A stretch of DNA of 64,000 nucleotides from Variovorax sp. TBS-050B (GTDB lineage: Bacteria; Pseudomonadota; Gammaproteobacteria; Burkholderiales; Burkholderiaceae_C): positions 1,525,001 through 1,589,000 of the forward strand of contig NZ_JARXYR010000002.1 of the NCBI RefSeq assembly GCF_029893635.1, written 5' to 3'. Every line of letters starts with the position of its first letter. Position 1 is the stretch's first letter. Both the position numbers and the translations under genes were made by a program. Below the pieces are notes generated by a model. That model saw only the letters and a program-made list of their open reading frames with translations. It did no database searches and was not told the DNA's origin. Below, in pieces: positions 3,315 through 62,704 of this stretch.

Positions 3315-4514
3315 ATGGCCGCCAAAGCGCAATTCCACTGGGACGACCCGTTCCTGCTCGACCAGCAACTGACCGACGACGAGCGCATGATCCGCGACGC
3401 GGCCAATGCCTACTGCCAGGAGCGCCTCGCGCCGCGCGTGCTCGAAGGCTTCCGCACCGGCGAGACCGACCCCGCCATCTTTCGCGAAATGGGCGCGCTC
3501 GGCCTGCTCGGCCCGACGATCCCCGAGCAGTACGGCGGCCCCGGCCTCAACTACGTGGCCTACGGCCTGATCGCGCGCGAAGTCGAGCGCGTCGATTCGG
3601 GCTACCGCTCGATGGCCAGCGTGCAGAGCTCGCTCGTGATGGTGCCGATCTTCGAATTCGGCAGCGAAGGGCAGAAGCAGAAGTTCCTGCCCAAGCTCGC
3701 CACCGGCGAATGGATCGGCTGCTTCGGCCTCACCGAGCCCGACCACGGCTCCGACCCCGGCAGCATGGCCACGCGTGCCAAGAAGGTGCCGGGCGGCTAC
3801 TCGCTCACCGGTTCCAAGATGTGGATCAGCAACTCGCCGATCGCCGACGTGTTCGTGGTCTGGGCCAAGGAGGTCAGCGAGGGCGGCGCCGTCGGCCCGA
3901 TCCGCGGCTTCGTGCTCGAGAAGGGCATGAAGGGCCTGAGCGCCCCGGCGATCCACGGCAAGGTCGGCCTGCGCGCCAGCATCACGGGCGAGATCGTGAT
4001 GGACGGCGTGTTCTGCCCCGAGGAGAACGCCTTCCCCGAAGTGCAGGGCCTCAAGGGTCCGTTCACCTGCCTCAACAGCGCGCGCTACGGCATCTCCTGG
4101 GGTGCGCTCGGCGCGGCCGAAGACTGCTGGCACCGCGCGCGCCAGTACACGCTGGACCGCAAGCAGTTCGGCCGCCCGCTGGCCGCCAACCAGCTGATCC
4201 AGAAGAAGCTCGCCGACATGCAGACCGAGATCACGCTCGGCCTGCAGGGCAGCCTGCGCCTCGGCCGCATGAAGGACGAGGGCACGGCCGCGGTCGAGAT
4301 CACCTCGATCATGAAGCGCAACAACTGCGGCAAGGCGCTCGACATCGCCCGCATGGCACGCGACATGATGGGCGGCAACGGCATCAGCGACGAGTTCGGC
4401 GTGGCGCGCCACCTCGTGAACCTCGAGGTGGTCAACACCTACGAAGGCACGCACGACATCCACGCGCTGATCCTGGGCCGCGCGATCACGGGCATCGCGG
4501 CCTTCGCGAACTGA
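3315..4514 (+). CDS. gcdH: Glutaryl-CoA dehydrogenase
   Basis: FAD enzyme that oxidises and decarboxylates glutaryl-CoA to crotonyl-CoA in lysine, tryptophan and glutarate breakdown. At 399 residues it has the full acyl-CoA dehydrogenase fold: N-terminal helical domain, middle beta domain with [16 protein letters not shown] (about 136-151) and WISNSP, and a C-terminal helical domain. The catalytic base is Glu377 in [20 protein letters not shown], a signature of this subfamily that distinguishes it from short-chain dehydrogenases. The start follows a CCGGAGA ribosome-binding site. It is divergent from a LysR gene and followed by a CoA-transferase gene, making a glutarate module. Confidence 0.95.
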
Positions 4515-4522
4515 CCTGAAAT

Positions 4523-4648
4523 CGGACCGCCGAACGCAGAAGAAATACAAAAGCTACGCAGAAGTCGCAGAAGAGACCCGAGAAATTTTCTTCTGCATTC
4601 CTTTTGCGACTTCTGCGAAACCTTCGCGCCCTCTGCGTTCTGCCCCCG
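4523..4648. repeat. Long inverted-repeat element, copy 1
   Basis: Imperfect palindrome starting 8 bases after the gcdH stop and ending about 20 bases before the next start. The left arm has CGGACCGCCGAACGCAGAAG and an inner CGCAGAAGTCGCA; the right arm carries the complement TGCGACTTCTGCG and an end CTCTGCGTTC. It is related in sequence to 50567-50695 and 61477-61599. Its right end is the most degraded of the three copies. Confidence 0.85.
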
Positions 4649-4667
4649 TATTCCTCCAGCCTCCAAC

Positions 4668-5900
4668 ATGACCCCAGCAGCCCTCGACGGCATCAAGGTT
4701 CTCGATCTTTCCCGCGTGCTCGCGGGCCCGTGGTGCACGCAGATCCTGGCGGACCTGGGTGCCGACGTCATCAAGATCGAACGTCCCGGCGTCGGCGACG
4801 ACACGCGCACCTGGGGCCCGCCCTTCATCAAGGACGCCCACGGCAACGACACCGACCAGGCCAGCTACTTCACCGCCTGCAACCGCAACAAGCGCTCGGT
4901 CACGGTCGACATGGCCACGCCCGAGGGGCAGGCGCTGCTGCAGCGCATGGCGGCCCAGGCCGACATCGTGGTCGAGAACTTCAAGACCGGTGGCCTCAAA
5001 CAGTACGGCCTCGACCACGAGAGCCTGCGCGCGGCCAACCCGCGCCTCATCTACTGCAGCGTCACCGGCTTCGGCCACGACGGCCCCTATGCCGAGCGCG
5101 CGGGCTACGACCTGATGATCCAGGCCATGACCGGCATGATGAGCATCACCGGCCGTCCCGACGGCGAGCCCGGCGGCGGCCCGCTGCGCGTGGGCGTGGC
5201 GCTCACCGACCTGTTCACCGGCGTCTACGCCAGCACCGCGATCCTGGCCGCGCTGCAGGTGCGCGACCGCACCGGCGAGGGCCAGCACATCGACATGGCG
5301 CTGCTCGACGTCGGGATGGCGATCCTCGCCAACCAGGCGAGCGCCTTCCTCAACACCGGCCGCGCGCCGCAGCGCCAGGGCAACACGCACCCGAGCCTCG
5401 CGCCGTACCAGGACTTCCCGACGCAGGACGGCGCGATGCTGCTCGCGATCGGCAACAACGGCCAGTTCGCGCGCTTCTGCGAGGCGGCGGGCCGCCCCGA
5501 GTGGGCCGCCGACGCGCGCTTCGCCACCAACACCCTGCGCGTGAAGCACCGCGGCGTGCTGATCCCGCTGATGGAGGAACTCACGCGCACCCGCACCACG
5601 GCCGAGTGGGTCGCGCTGCTCGAGGACAAGGCCGTGCCCTGCGGCCCGATCAACGACATCGCCCAGGCCTTCGACGACGCGCAGGTCAAGGCGCGCGGCC
5701 TCGCCGTCACGCTGCCGCGCGATGCGGGCGACGGCATCGCCAGCATCACCGGCGTCGCGAGCCCGCTGCGCCTCTCGGCCACGCCGCCGGTGCTGCGCCA
5801 TGCACCGCCCGCGCTCGGGCAGCACACGCGCGAGGTGCTGGCCGAGTTCGGCATCGACGGCGCGCGCTTCGAGGCCTTGCGCGCGGCGGGCGTGGTCTGA
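4668..5900 (+). CDS. CaiB/BaiF (family III) CoA-transferase, probable glutarate CoA-transferase
   Basis: Moves CoA between organic acids through an aspartyl-CoA thioester. The 410-residue protein has the family's opening LDGIKVLDLSRVLAGPWCTQ, the CoA-binding NRNKRSVTVD and the catalytic Asp148 in AGYDLMIQAMTG. Position directly after gcdH suggests that it makes glutaryl-CoA from glutarate with succinyl-CoA, as the SUGCT-type enzymes do; this is inference from context. The ATG has a weak ribosome-binding site. The inverted-repeat element upstream leaves little room for a separate promoter, so cotranscription with gcdH is likely. Confidence 0.88.
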   Translation: MTPAALDGIKVLDLSRVLAGPWCTQILADLGADVIKIERPGVGDDTRTWGPPFIKDAHGNDTDQASYFTACNRNKRSVTVDMATPEGQALLQRMAAQADIVVENFKTGGLKQYGLDHESLRAANPRLIYCSVTGFGHDGPYAERAGYDLMIQAMTGMMSITGRPDGEPGGGPLRVGVALTDLFTGVYASTAILAALQVRDRTGEGQHIDMALLDVGMAILANQASAFLNTGRAPQRQGNTHPSLAPYQDFPTQDGAMLLAIGNNGQFARFCEAAGRPEWAADARFATNTLRVKHRGVLIPLMEELTRTRTTAEWVALLEDKAVPCGPINDIAQAFDDAQVKARGLAVTLPRDAGDGIASITGVASPLRLSATPPVLRHAPPALGQHTREVLAEFGIDGARFEALRAAGVV

Positions 5901-49773: not shown

Positions 49774-50558
49774 CGGCCCGCAGCCAGCTTTCGATCCAGG
49801 GCGTCTCGCGCGTCTTCACGGGTGCCAAGGGCCAGCGCACGCAGGCGCTGCAGCCGATCGACTTCGAGGTGCGCGAGAACGACTTCGTCACCATCCTCGG
49901 CCCTTCGGGCTGCGGCAAGTCGACGCTGCTGCGCATCGTCGCGGGGCTCGACTTCCCGAGCACTGGCCAGGTGCTGCTCGACGGCGAGCGCATCGAGGGC
50001 CCGGGCGCCGACCGCGGCGTGGTGTTCCAGAGCTACACGCTGTTCCCGTGGCTCACGGTGGCGCAGAACATCCGCTTCGGCCTGCGCGAGCGCGGCATGA
50101 GCGAGGCCGACCAGAAGGAGCGCAGCGAGTTCTTCATCGCCAAGGTCGGGCTGCGCGGCTTCGAGCACCACTACCCCAAGCAGCTCTCGGGCGGCATGCA
50201 GCAGCGCACCGCGATCGCGCGCGCGCTCGCCAACGACCCCAAGATGCTGCTGCTCGACGAACCCTTCGGCGCGCTCGACAACCAGACCCGCGTGCTGATG
50301 CAGGAGCTCTTGCTCGGCATCTGGGAATCGGCGCAGAAGACCGTGCTGTTCGTCACGCACGACATCGACGAGGCGATCTTCATGGCCAACCGGGTGGCAG
50401 TATTCAGCGCCCGGCCCGGCCGCATCAAGACCGAGATCGCCGTCGACTTCCCGCATCCGCGCAAGTACACCATCAAGACCTCGCCCGAGTTCATGGCCAT
50501 CAAGGCGCGGCTCACCGAAGAGATCCGCGCCGAGTCGATGGCTGCTGCGGAGCACTGA
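49770..50558 (+). CDS. ABC transporter ATP-binding protein (NitT/TauT type)
   Basis: A 262-residue ATPase. Walker A GPSGCGKST (44-52), Q-loop VVFQSYTLFPWL, signature LSGGMQQRTAIARAL, Walker B LLLDEPFGALD and H-loop VTHDIDEA are all present. Its start overlaps the permease stop (ATGA). It energises the importer of the hut locus. An inverted-repeat element begins eight bases after its stop. Confidence 0.93.
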   Translation: MTARSQLSIQGVSRVFTGAKGQRTQALQPIDFEVRENDFVTILGPSGCGKSTLLRIVAGLDFPSTGQVLLDGERIEGPGADRGVVFQSYTLFPWLTVAQNIRFGLRERGMSEADQKERSEFFIAKVGLRGFEHHYPKQLSGGMQQRTAIARALANDPKMLLLDEPFGALDNQTRVLMQELLLGIWESAQKTVLFVTHDIDEAIFMANRVAVFSARPGRIKTEIAVDFPHPRKYTIKTSPEFMAIKARLTEEIRAESMAAAEH

Positions 50559-50566
50559 GATGAACA

Positions 50567-50695
50567 CGGACAGCCGAACGCAGAAGAAAGACAAAAGAAT
50601 CGCAGAAGTCGCAGAACGAGAAAACCAAGAATTCCTGGTTTCTTCTTTTTCGCGACCTCTGCGAAATCTTCGCGCCCTCTGCATTCGGCAGTCCG
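50567..50695. repeat. Long inverted-repeat element, copy 2
   Basis: The best-preserved copy. Ends are CGGACAGCCGAACGCAGA and, on the complement of the right side, CGGACTGCCGAATGCAGA. Inner arms pair CGCAGAAGTCGCAGAA with TTTTTCGCGACCTCTGCG. It fills the gap between the ATPase stop (50558) and hutC (50712). Confidence 0.9.
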
Positions 50696-50711
50696 CTTTC
50701 GGCAGCGTCCC

Positions 50712-51455
50712 ATGACCGCACCCCGCACCGAGCCCTCGCTTGCGCTCTACGCGCAGGTCAAGGACCACATCTCGCGCAAGATCCAGGACGGCACCTGGCC
50801 CGCGGGCCATCGCCTGCCTTCGGAGAGCGAGCTGGTCGCGCAGTTCGGCATCTCGCGCATGACGGTGAACCGCGCGCTGCGCGAGCTGGTGGAGCAGGGG
50901 CGCATCGTGCGCATGGCCGGCGTCGGCAGCTTCGTGGCCGAGGCCAAGCCGCAGTCCACGCTGCTGCAGATCGCCAACATCGCGAGCGAGATCCGCCAGC
51001 GCGGCCACGACTACCGCTGCGAGATGCTCGCGGTCGAGCGCCTTGCCGCCTCGCCCGACGTGGCCGCCTGGCTCGACATGCGCGCGGGCACCTCGGTGTT
51101 CCACAGCGTCTGCCTGCACCTCGAGAACGACACGCCGGTGCAGCTCGAGGAGCGCTACGTCAATCCGCAGGTGGTGCCCGACTTCCTCGAGCAGGATTTC
51201 GCGGCCGTGCCGCCGAGCGAATACCTGGTGCGCCACGTGCCCTTCGACCAGATCGAGCATGTGGTCGATGCGGTGCTGCCCACCGCCGAGCAGGCCGGCC
51301 GGCTCGCGATGGAGCCCACTGACCCCTGCCTGCTGCTGACGCGCCGCACCTGGACGCGCAACACGCCGGTCACCTGGGTGCGCTGCCTGCATCCCGCCTC
51401 GCGCTACAGCCTCGGCAGCCGCTTCCGGGCCGACGGCAATCCTTCCTTCGGCTGA
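50712..51455 (+). CDS. hutC: Histidine utilisation repressor HutC
   Basis: A 247-residue GntR/HutC-family repressor. The winged helix (HRLPSESELVAQFGISRMTV, about residues 36-55) and wing GRIVRMAGVGSFVAE precede a UTRA ligand domain from about residue 90 that binds urocanate in known HutC proteins. LEERYVNPQVVPDFLEQDF and the C-terminal TRRTWTRNTPVTWV are typical. Three matching operators in the locus support the assignment. No operator is seen directly before hutC, which is preceded by the inverted-repeat element. Confidence 0.95.
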   Translation: MTAPRTEPSLALYAQVKDHISRKIQDGTWPAGHRLPSESELVAQFGISRMTVNRALRELVEQGRIVRMAGVGSFVAEAKPQSTLLQIANIASEIRQRGHDYRCEMLAVERLAASPDVAAWLDMRAGTSVFHSVCLHLENDTPVQLEERYVNPQVVPDFLEQDFAAVPPSEYLVRHVPFDQIEHVVDAVLPTAEQAGRLAMEPTDPCLLLTRRTWTRNTPVTWVRCLHPASRYSLGSRFRADGNPSFG

Positions 51456-54794: not shown

Positions 54795-54831
54795 GCCGGA
54801 CAAAGGTAAGCCGAAGGTAGGAAGAAAAAGC

Positions 54832-54862
54832 GCGCCGATTCCCACTCGGTGGGAATCGGCGC
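54832..54862. terminator. Strong hairpin after hutU
   Basis: GCGCCGATTCCCA and TGGGAATCGGCGC form a perfect 13-bp stem with a five-base loop. On the plus strand it is preceded by GAAGAAAAAG and lacks a U-tract; on the minus strand TTTTTCTTC follows it, so it is best oriented against antisense transcription. Confidence 0.65.
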
Positions 54863-54919
54863 TTGGATGTGGGAACGACGGGCCAGATACTGCACGCCAT
54901 TTCCCGTGACCGCCGCCCG

Positions 54920-60651: not shown

Positions 60652-61464
60652 ATGCCCTTCACCACCCACGAACCCCCTTTCCGCTTTCGCCAGGGCACGC
60701 GCCCGCTGCTGATCTCGATGCCGCACGTCGGCACCCACGTGCCGCCCGCGCTGGCCGCGCGCCTCACCGACGAGGCGCGCCAGGTGCCCGACACCGACTG
60801 GCACCTCGAACGGCTCTATGACTTCGCCGACGAGCTCGGCGCCTCGGTGCTCGTGGCCACGCACTCGCGCTACGTCATCGACCTCAACCGTCCGCCCGAC
60901 GGCGCGAGCCTCTACCCGGGCCAGAGCGTCACGGGCCTGTGCCCGGTCGACACCTTCGACGACACGCCGGTCTACGGCTCGGCCGACGACCTGCCCGACG
61001 AGGCCGAGATCGCCGAGCGCCGCGAGGCCATCTGGGTGCCGTACCACCGCCAGCTGCAGACCGAGCTCGCGCGCCTGAAGGCCGCGCACGGCACCATCGC
61101 GCTGTGGGATGCGCATTCGATCCGCTCGGTGCTGCCGCGCTTCTTCGAGGGCAAGCTGCCCGACCTGAACCTCGGCACCGGCAAGGGCACGAGCTGCGAT
61201 CCGGTGCTCGCTCAGACGCTGCTCGACATCGCCGAGTCGGCCACCGGCTATACCGGCGTGCTCAACGGCCGCTTCACGGGCGGCTACATCACGCGCGAAT
61301 ACGGCAACCCGGCCGCGGGCGTGCATGCGGTGCAGCTCGAGATGACCCAGTCGAGCTACATGCAGGAGCAGCTGCCCTTCGACTACCTGCCCGAAGTCGC
61401 GGCGGGCGTGCAGCCGCACGTGCGGCGCATGATCGAGGCGGTGCTGGCGTTCGTCGAGCAGTAG
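60652..61464 (+). CDS. hutG: N-formylglutamate deformylase
   Basis: Zinc amidohydrolase that releases formate from N-formylglutamate, giving glutamate as the last hut step. The 270-residue protein shows ISMPHVGTHVP, YVIDLNRPPDG, LWDAHSIRSVLPRFFEGKLP and GYITREYGNPAAGVHAVQLE. It starts 11 bases after hutF and ends the hut locus; copy 3 of the inverted-repeat element begins 12 bases after its stop. Confidence 0.95.
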   Translation: MPFTTHEPPFRFRQGTRPLLISMPHVGTHVPPALAARLTDEARQVPDTDWHLERLYDFADELGASVLVATHSRYVIDLNRPPDGASLYPGQSVTGLCPVDTFDDTPVYGSADDLPDEAEIAERREAIWVPYHRQLQTELARLKAAHGTIALWDAHSIRSVLPRFFEGKLPDLNLGTGKGTSCDPVLAQTLLDIAESATGYTGVLNGRFTGGYITREYGNPAAGVHAVQLEMTQSSYMQEQLPFDYLPEVAAGVQPHVRRMIEAVLAFVEQ

Positions 61465-61476
61465 CCGCAGGGAAGG

Positions 61477-61599
61477 CGGACAGCCGGACGCAGAGGACGC
61501 GAAGGTTTCGCGAAAGGCGCGAAAGAAATCAAATTAATTTTTCAGGTTTCCTTTCGCGTCCTTCGCGGAACCTTTGCGCCCTTCGCGTACGGAAGTCCG
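61477..61599. repeat. Long inverted-repeat element, copy 3
   Basis: Left end CGGACAGCCGGACGCAGAGG; the complement of the right end reads CGGACTTCCGTACGCGAAGG. Inner arms pair CGCGAAAGGCGCGAAAG with CTTTCGCGTCCTTCGCG. It lies between hutG and metH. This copy has diverged most in its inner repeats from copies 1 and 2 but is the most regular hairpin. Confidence 0.88.
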
Positions 61600-61648
61600 A
61601 TCCCGCATTGCAGCGAGGGTGGTCAACCGCGAGCGACAATAACGGCCT

Positions 61649-62704
61649 ATGAAGCCCCCCGTCTACACCCGCGGCCAGGCCCTGCCCGGCATCCTTGCAA
61701 AGCGCATCGCCATCCTCGACGGCGCGATGGGCACGATGATCCAGCGCTTCAAGCTCACCGAGGAACAGTACCGCGGCGAGCGCTTCAAGGACTTCGGCCG
61801 CGACGTGAAGGGCAACAACGAGCTGCTCTCGCTCACCCGGCCCGACGTGATCTCCGACATCCACGAGGGCTACCTCGCGGCCGGTGCCGACCTGATCGAG
61901 ACCAACACCTTCGGCGCCACCACCATCGCGCAGGAGGACTACGGCATGGCGGATCTCGCGCGCGAGATGAACTTCGAATCCGCCAAGCTCGCACGCGCCG
62001 CCTGCGACAAGTTCAGCACGCCCGACAAGCCGCGCTTCGTGGCAGGCGCGCTCGGCCCCACGCCCAAGACCGCGAGCATCAGCCCCGACGTCAACGACCC
62101 GGGCGCGCGCAACGTCAGCTTCGAGGAACTGCGCGCGGCCTACTACGAACAGACCCAGGCGCTCGTCGAGGGCGGCGCCGACGTGCTGCTGGTCGAGACC
62201 ATCTTCGACACGCTCAACGCCAAGGCCGCGCTGTTCGCGATCGACGAGTACTTCGAGGCGAGCGGCGAGCGCCTGCCGCTGATCATCAGCGGCACCGTGA
62301 CCGATGCCTCGGGCCGCATCCTCAGCGGCCAGACCGTGACCGCCTTCTGGCACAGCGTGCGCCACGCGCAGCCGCTGGCCGTGGGCCTCAACTGCGCGCT
62401 CGGCGCGGCGCTGATGCGGCCGTACATCCAGGAACTGGCCAAGGCCGCGGGCGACACCTACATCAGCTGCTATCCGAACGCCGGCCTGCCCAATCCGATG
62501 AGCGAGACCGGCTTCGACGAGACGCCCGACGTCACCTCGCGGCTGCTGCACGAGTTCGCCGACGAAGGGCTGGTCAACATCGTCGGCGGCTGCTGCGGCA
62601 CCACGCCCGACCACATCGCGGCGATCGGCCAGGCCGTGGCGCCGATGCCGGTGCGCCTGCTGAGCGGCACCCACCACGCCGGCTTCTACAAGGAAGCGGC
62701 CTGA
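61649..62704 (+). CDS. metH: Methionine synthase, homocysteine-methyltransferase domain protein (split MetH)
   Basis: The N-terminal homocysteine-binding domain of cobalamin-dependent methionine synthase, as a 351-residue protein. Visible are [29 protein letters not shown] and the zinc ligands Cys249 (GLNCALG), Cys315 and Cys316 ([12 protein letters not shown]). The folate, cobalamin and activation domains are absent, and the next gene is unrelated. In several betaproteobacteria metH is two genes, and the second part is presumably elsewhere. No cobalamin riboswitch is evident in the short leader. Confidence 0.92.

Follow-up and report, generated by a model that had tools for sequence, protein, structure and literature searches.

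Three palindromic elements in the window

The window, by which we mean the whole stretch of 64,000 nucleotides of Variovorax sp. TBS-050B analyzed here, carries three palindromic elements in the spacers between genes (Table 1). Copy 1 lies between an acyl-CoA dehydrogenase gene (stop codon at 4512-4514) and a CoA-transferase family III gene (start at 4668). Copy 2 begins 8 nt past the stop codon of its upstream gene (50556-50558) and is followed by a GntR/UTRA (hutC-like) gene starting at 50712. Copy 3 begins 12 nt past the stop codon (61462-61464) of a gene with an N-formylglutamate amidohydrolase domain, and precedes a homocysteine S-methyltransferase gene (start at 61649).

Table 1. Copies of the repeat family in the window, and the complete element found elsewhere in the same genome
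Feature	Position	Outer palindrome	Strand	Description
Copy 1	4523..4649	~4517-4653	+	Asymmetric 'A' subtype; covariance model 127.7 bits
Copy 2	50567..50695	~50561-50700	+	Asymmetric 'A' subtype; covariance model 118.2 bits
Copy 3	61477..61599	~61471-61609	+	Symmetric 'S' subtype with CGCGAAGG arms; covariance model 99.3 bits (+), 93.7 bits (-)
Complete element (L436)	C2:2018953-2019477			Intact GxxExxY ORF between family arms

All three copies are imperfect palindromes from end to end: two arms of ~50 nt are separated by a loop of about 20-25 nt, and their folding surpasses that of 200 dinucleotide shuffles by a wide margin on either strand (z -6.8 to -11.2). With a covariance model built from 41 copies, the best other match in the window reaches 17.7 bits (matches on the opposite strand at the same places being set aside), and an Rfam scan of the window gave no match at the gathering score. 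The original prediction, made from the letters of the window, had described three imperfect palindromes of ~125 bp at these places, and its boundaries are right within a base or so.

The window also contains, at 54797-54873, a short GC-rich hairpin (CCGATTCCCACTCGGTGGGAATCGGCGC) past a stop codon, which is probably an ordinary terminator.

Size and anatomy of the family

Merging several searches, we found at least 103 distinct places of the family, some of them incomplete, in this Variovorax genome of 5.54 Mb, which is assembled in two contigs (4.93 Mb and 0.60 Mb). A search with the sequence of copy 2 (best 40 of 95 candidates scored) returned mostly full-length copies, and the covariance model gave 150 matches, both strands counted, as the best 150 of 2924 candidates scored; the copy numbers that it gives are minimum values, and it may overlook weak families. 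A 24-nt arm-end pattern with up to three mismatches matched the genome 138 times, versus 0 times for the reversed control, although for the count of 103 placed copies 38 of these 138 matches were counted but carried no position. Three of 106 merged positions turned out to be the second halves of long copies, leaving 103. All 103 placed copies map to the 4.93-Mb contig; the 0.60-Mb contig C1, where ~11 would be expected by length, has none of them.

From the copy-2 search and the covariance model we collected 86 non-redundant copies with their flanks. Their core is 107-137 bp long, and their arms are strings of 9-11-nt units of the form CGC(AG or GA)A(A/G)G, spaced by one to three bases. Two subtypes can be told apart: an asymmetric one (55/86), in which the left arm has GGAAGACAAAAG replacing two units, and a symmetric one (31/86). 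No arm pair asymmetric on both sides occurs among the 166 copies of a wider set (this set leaves out L010, L014, L018, L022, L027 and L031, which belong to G014 and were re-fetched or superseded, and the partial match L013). The outward ends share the motif (T)GAA[A/T]NCGG, sometimes together with a CGGGAT block, and we write the family ends as TGAAWNCGG...AACGCAGA. In a survey of the ends, in which 3 of the 86 copies had no anchor, the strict (T)GAA[A/T]NCGG pattern was present at the left end in 50 and at the right end in 40 of 83 copies. The ends are slightly longer than the original prediction had drawn them, and this motif is common at both.

Some copies host other sequences in their loop. 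A second palindromic repeat, of the GTGGGCTG...CAGCCCAC type, is nested in the loop at L437 (C2:1108430-1108770) and L441 (C2:1779850-1780120), and other inserts occupy the loop at L442 and L445.

Pairing of the arms

Concerning the arms, it had been predicted that they diverge between copies in a way that keeps their pairing, and our data agree in part. Paired cells amount to 80.2% versus 79.4% after shuffling, a level reached by 1 of 500 shuffles, and both the covariation score (0.107 versus 0.094) and the number of cells changed on both sides (138 versus 106) lie above all 500 shuffles, all three measures being inflated by the relatedness of the copies. However, pairs changed on both sides number 17, versus 18.6 in shuffles, which is no excess, and most of the signal is subfamily structure (CGCAGAAG versus CGCGAAGG arms).

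The minus strand folds more stably in 36 of 41 copies. Moreover, most mismatches are A.C or G.T, with A.C cells outnumbering G.T cells over all pairs (466 versus 183). Both the minus-strand folding and the A.C excess arise mostly because one inherited arm is asymmetric, and the freely varying columns 44, 45, 47, 53 and 54 have no strand preference (71 versus 67). Selection at the RNA level was considered and rejected, on account of the weak covariation and of the balanced mismatches at these free columns; therefore, we do not claim a functional RNA.

Placement behind stop codons

In this genome, the nearest stop codon is at most 20 nt away in 79 of the 84 copies having one. Judged from a codon-usage score on both flanks rather than from annotation, the neighbouring genes are co-directional for 59 of the 86 copies, convergent for 25 and divergent for 2. 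The same picture was obtained for 80 copies from six other Variovorax genomes (51 co-directional, 28 convergent, 1 divergent; stop codon at most 20 nt away in 67/79), these being the best-scoring ones, so that the 'A' subtype is over-represented. In this genome, the element faces either way relative to transcription about equally often, with 30 versus 29 copies in tandem pairs. The leftover spacer is mostly small, which indicates that the element fills a formerly very short gap. Such placement is not new in itself, since passages in Di Nocera et al. (PMC3733652) report a similar one for REP sequences, which lie within 20 nt of stop codons and avoid divergent pairs.

Distribution, empty sites and changing occupants

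At E <= 1e-5, 21 of 101 Variovorax genomes match the family and 80 have no match at this threshold, while seven have at least 32-34 matches each (best 34 per genome scored). Matches were obtained for 18 of 299 genomes and 15 of 141 genera at the family level, and, with more divergent arms, for 26 of 369 genomes at the class level, this last being an upper figure because one of the 11 class-level loci read (L284) has no units and is probably a chance structural match. At the phylum level, a two-unit pattern with 16 fixed bases matched 23 of 398 genomes, many belonging to a single family, versus 5 for the reversed control. The original prediction of a dispersed family, to be sought through the whole genome and its relatives, is supported: numerous paralogues exist in this genome, and relatives occur in Variovorax and other genera.

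Empty orthologous sites, which had also been proposed as something to look for, are present, and at such sites ORF-less copies are either there or missing as whole units. The copy-1 site was read in 30 of the 100 genomes that matched: it is occupied in 5 (this genome and four relatives), it is a bare spacer of at most 20 nt in 23 of the 29 relatives, and it holds other sequence in 2. The copy-2 site is occupied in 2 of 30 genomes (this one and G091), the rest having 28-381 nt of other or bare sequence. Trees of the copy-1 flanks are in conflict: the occupied G010 groups with the occupied G049 in the left-flank tree and with the empty G009 in the right-flank tree, a hint of transfer through flank recombination.

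In several relatives (L185, L187, L193, L196, L205, L207, L208), the spacer orthologous to that of copy 2 (50559-50711) holds other, unrelated repeat-like sequence, of the types CTCCCTCC/GGAGGG and GCGAATGTCCCCCGCTTCGCTCC, as if this spacer attracted several repeat families.

Occupancy recurs at the same sites. Among the 80 copies from the six other Variovorax genomes, 37 lie at sites also occupied in this genome (16/23 for V. guangxiensis, 5/20 for G014 and 3/20 for G091), corresponding to 25 distinct sites overall. By our estimate, scattered insertion into a few thousand gaps would give ~2% of sharing by chance, far below what is observed. Between close relatives, same-site occupants have an identity of 0.82-0.98 in eight of nine pairs and of 0.75 in the ninth, and most of them descend from each other. 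In the comparison with V. guangxiensis, 4 of 16 same-site occupants are each other's best match, a ranking that is blurred by neutral drift between species and is only partly usable as proof of independent insertion, since free positions are near saturation between species. Subtype changes and inversions are a firmer sign of turnover: of 46 more distant site pairs, 14 have different subtypes and 11 have occupants in opposite orientations, and among the nine close pairs eight agree and one is flipped, although site pairs overlap and these counts are not independent. In one clear case, at G000 C2:1133901, the occupant matches its V. guangxiensis counterpart better than any other of the 86 copies does, yet it lies there inverted (0.88 when flipped, 0.70 when syntenic). 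Either the recurrent sites are hit repeatedly or their occupants are exchanged, and both would suit an element that provokes breaks at preferred places; the alternative would be common descent with many losses.

Two tandem copies are present in G001 (C10:229046-229171 and 229203-229327; L020, L025), 31 bp apart, where G000 has one copy. A 9-nt piece of the neighbouring gene end (TTACTTGGC) lies on both sides of the second copy.

The original prediction had also suggested looking for target-site duplications, and here the outcome was negative. Local alignment over the 166 copies did not exceed permuted pairs (p 0.07-0.61, depending on window size), nor did the copies of this genome taken alone, with flanks defined by terminus or by core, apart from one of many offset tests that yielded 5 versus 0.9 expected; old copies could have lost their duplications.

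A complete copy with a GxxExxY nuclease gene

The arm-end pattern exposed copies with larger centres, one of which is a complete element (L436, Table 1). Several others hold other sequence and some a nested hairpin; among the long copies read in this genome after the pattern search, only GxxExxY or other inserts were found, and the complete form was seen once. It lies between a trpE-like gene, of which the locus contains a part with TIGR00564 as its best match, and a trpG-like gene, which scores above the cut-off of TIGR00566. Its two arms align to each other over 61 nt and are 94% identical over 52 nt, versus a mean of 72%, lowered by the 55 copies with one asymmetric arm, and a maximum of 85% in the 86 ORF-less copies. 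These arms were recovered by the family's own end pattern and are the same arms as those of the window copies.

The ORF belongs to Pfam family PF13366 (PDDEXK_3; E 2.4e-38, 131.5 bits versus a cut-off of 22) and to NCBIfam family TIGR04256 (GxxExxY; E 7.3e-40, 136 bits versus a cut-off of 35), for which we know of no biochemical activity. It codes for a protein of 150 residues whose ATG overlaps the upstream stop codon (ATGA), and its reading frame runs through the left arm, which is encoded as EYGLPDAEDAKDSRRTQK. In the structure model, this N-terminal tail is predicted to be disordered (residues 1-26, pLDDT < 50), and the core is confident (113/150 residues with pLDDT >= 90). All 43 aligned proteins have D92, E102, K104 and Q116, and the Q-x3-Y motif is kept, with an invariant Q and a Y in at least 90% of them. 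Fold matches are weak, none being at E <= 0.001; the best is SSO0001 (4ic1; E 2.4e-3), which we take to be a Cas4, followed by lambda-type exonucleases, and PADLOC Cas4 profiles match the nuclease at 0.029 and 0.0005. A tblastn search of the protein over 452 loci (2.0 Mb) matched L436 alone.

GxxExxY homologues and their flanks in other phyla

At least 7,979 GxxExxY homologues pass among the best 8,000 candidates scored. Judged from protein sequence, 112 of the 120 nearest homologues have an arm-like N-terminus under a strict pattern and seven of the other eight have visible variants of it, leaving P0063 as the sole one without. Those named come from Variovorax, Ramlibacter, Xenophilus, Xylophilus, Brachymonas and Burkholderiales.

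We read the DNA of ten GxxExxY loci, namely L436, eight plasmid records and one viral contig. In eight of them, the flanking repeats beat all 200 shuffles. Inverted arms surround the gene in Variovorax, in Sphingomonas (between fabD and fabG), in Bernardetia (with CACAGAG units), in Bacteroides finegoldii (behind radA) and in the viral contig; the Gemmatirosa gene has whole palindromes on both sides, and the flanking repeats of a Fusobacteriota plasmid and of Prevotella are direct, not inverted. No repeat beyond chance was found at the Persicobacter (4/200 shuffles as high) and Treponema (45/200) loci. Because units are shared between the arms of different loci, the top mismatched inverted score in a cross-locus control was 21.5, which exceeds the inverted scores of Sphingomonas (20.5) and Bernardetia (18.0). 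In all six annotated records, the GxxExxY gene is co-directional with both neighbours.

Similar repeats are also frequent in other phyla. Using the Bernardetia protein as a Bacteroidota query, we obtained 120 homologues; an N-terminal extension is present in 21, many of them near copies of each other, and in 17 of the 21 it holds tripeptides that CACAGAG, CACGGAG or CGCAGAG arms would encode. Such tripeptides occur at 0.065 per residue in the extensions versus 0.0004 in the core.

Concerning viruses, we found no GxxExxY match in phage records; in viral contigs, a scan with a single sequence gave no relative and a profile scan gave one. A contig classed as viral (L369; IMGVR_UViG_3300035696_003031, 10,959 bp) has several palindromes of the TTTCAACGCAGAG...CTCTGCGTTGAAA type in 11 kb. 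The family may also have other roles, as passages in the literature mention GxxExxY annotations in an algal virus genome (PMC12085832) and beside a CRISPR-like reverse transcriptase (PMC8934634).

Origin of the repeats

Judging from sequence, the family looks like gutted copies of an undescribed mobile element with a small DNA-cutting enzyme, and we consider it probable (roughly 0.68) that the repeats of the window are non-autonomous, ORF-less copies of a GxxExxY element. Its complete form would consist of one nuclease gene between two long inverted arms of CGC(AG/GA)AGG units. The nuclease may act on the arms, as a hairpin or cruciform, or on empty sites, and repair of the break would then copy or exchange the element, so that no target duplication would arise. 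Structure-specific cutting at the arms, or cutting at empty sites, with subsequent copying during repair would target the same sites time and again and could invert an occupant. By inserting at the stop codons of transcribed genes, the complete form would gain translation coupled to that of the host gene and do little harm, and the short copies would spread by using the nuclease in trans. We infer that the nuclease drives this spread, as well as the way in which it would move DNA. Weighing against such an explanation are the single complete copy seen in this genome, and the ten loci themselves, of which two have no repeat beyond chance and two have direct repeats.

A rather unlikely alternative is that the repeats are kept for a host function at the 3' ends of genes, such as mRNA protection, termination or control of translation, GxxExxY being a passenger. 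Their placement behind stop codons and their very stable hairpins on both strands would fit this, as would a report, cited in passages of PMC12306157, that REPs at most 15 nt from stop codons stall ribosomes. However, the absence of the element at our threshold from most Variovorax genomes, and the bare state of most orthologous spacers read, indicate that no conserved function is needed; the even orientation relative to transcription and the lack of strand preference at the free columns also argue against it, and chance landing of a passenger fails to explain why nearly all of the nearest GxxExxY homologues carry an arm-like peptide. Somewhat less probable still is that we are dealing with ordinary MITEs, derived from a DDE insertion sequence of which no full-length copy was seen. 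They resemble MITEs in their ~125 bp, terminal inverted symmetry, intergenic dispersal and empty sites, but their symmetry spans the whole length rather than ends of 15-30 bp, no target-site duplication was found over the 166 copies, the long copies read carry GxxExxY or other inserts, and occupancy recurs at the same sites.

The original prediction held that, being devoid of an ORF, the repeats would need a protein encoded elsewhere if mobile, such as a REP-associated transposase. The first half of this fits the GxxExxY gene, which is encoded elsewhere in the genome, but the partner does not appear to be a REP-associated transposase, and we give very little credence to the repeats being REP/BIME-like elements moved in trans by a Y1 (RAYT/TIRYT) enzyme. 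Placement within 20 nt of stop codons and the scarcity of divergent pairs are indeed as described for REPs in parts of PMC3733652, the lack of target-site duplication is expected of IS200/IS605-type chemistry, and each Variovorax genome checked, in a set of 12 and in another of 10, has one Y1_Tnp match. Yet the Y1 gene is also present without the repeat, since 7 of those 12 genomes had no element in a first search (three of the seven have two weak covariance-model matches); conversely, G385 (9 element matches, 96% complete) and G479 (4 matches) bear the element and have no Y1 match. Moreover, none of the 32 Y1 loci scanned with the covariance model is flanked by the repeat. The sole model match near such loci is 1.2 kb from an IS200-type gene, in an IS200-rich genome with 20 Y1 matches, and a looser unit pattern adds one short unit pair at L424, another Y1 copy of the same genome. 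The RAYT-like Y1 gene of the present genome is a single copy (C2:2520718-2521050, L069) with no flanking copies of the element. Finally, the repeats have no GTAG or CGTC tag and measure ~125 bp rather than 20-40 bp. On the grounds of this two-way mismatch in occurrence and of the unflanked loci, a RAYT/TIRYT partner was rejected.

Returning to the GxxExxY element, a wider reading can be proposed tentatively, at slightly less than even odds. GxxExxY nucleases may represent an undescribed class of mobile elements present across phyla, each made of one Cas4/RecB-like PD-(D/E)XK nuclease between unit-built palindromic arms, with no transposase, recombinase or reverse transcriptase. The gene would read through one arm in Burkholderiales, the element would be parked on the stop codons of operons, and it would move without target duplication via nuclease-provoked copying into preferred intergenic sites. 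The intergenic palindromes of CGCAGAG/CACAGAG type of many bacteria would then be its offspring.

Comparison with known systems

Bacterial genomes contain long intergenic palindromes for which no motor is known, a long-standing puzzle, and GxxExxY genes are very common and have no assigned role; joining the two gives each a testable function. If correct, this link would mean that small repeats, for which few ways of spreading are known, can also spread by means of a nuclease and without a transposase, and it would account for the position of such palindromes on stop codons. Annotators should take heed as well, since in many GxxExxY proteins the N-terminus may stem from translation through a mobile repeat.

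The ORF of the complete element is a clear member of the GxxExxY family (TIGR04256; PF13366, PDDEXK_3), far above both cut-offs and with the PD-(D/E)XK residues and the Q-x3-Y motif. However, this family is listed without function. We found no link in print between GxxExxY and palindromic arms or ORF-less repeats, in a search that had most subscription papers and all figures outside its reach, nor any description of the exact unit sequences or of this palindrome family in the literature searched. Other small PD-(D/E)XK nucleases are linked to DNA mobility, such as the Rpn/PDDEXK_2 recombination-promoting nucleases and the PD-(D/E)XK homing endonucleases, but we know of none that lies between long unit-built palindromic arms or has palindromic offspring.

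By description, the family can be likened to ERIC-like elements, which are also non-coding, palindromic, intergenic, of ~125 bp and in high copy number. The same features are shared with MITEs, from which the element differs in that no target-site duplication and, among the long copies read, no parent insertion sequence was found, the parent found being a nuclease gene rather than a transposase gene. The closest parallel in organization is offered by REPtrons and TIRtrons (RAYT, TIRYT), in which, according to passages of PMC3733652, dispersed intergenic palindromes likewise lie close behind stop codons and ORF-less repeats match the flanks of a gene for a DNA-acting enzyme. In contrast to REPs, the present element is about four times longer, has no GTAG/CGTC tag and has no Y1 gene between its repeats; in contrast to REPtrons, its enzyme is a PD-(D/E)XK nuclease, with a reading frame that runs through an arm. 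Gene-carrying elements with palindromic non-autonomous copies are a known kind; should the nuclease prove to be the motor, this one would count as new in kind.
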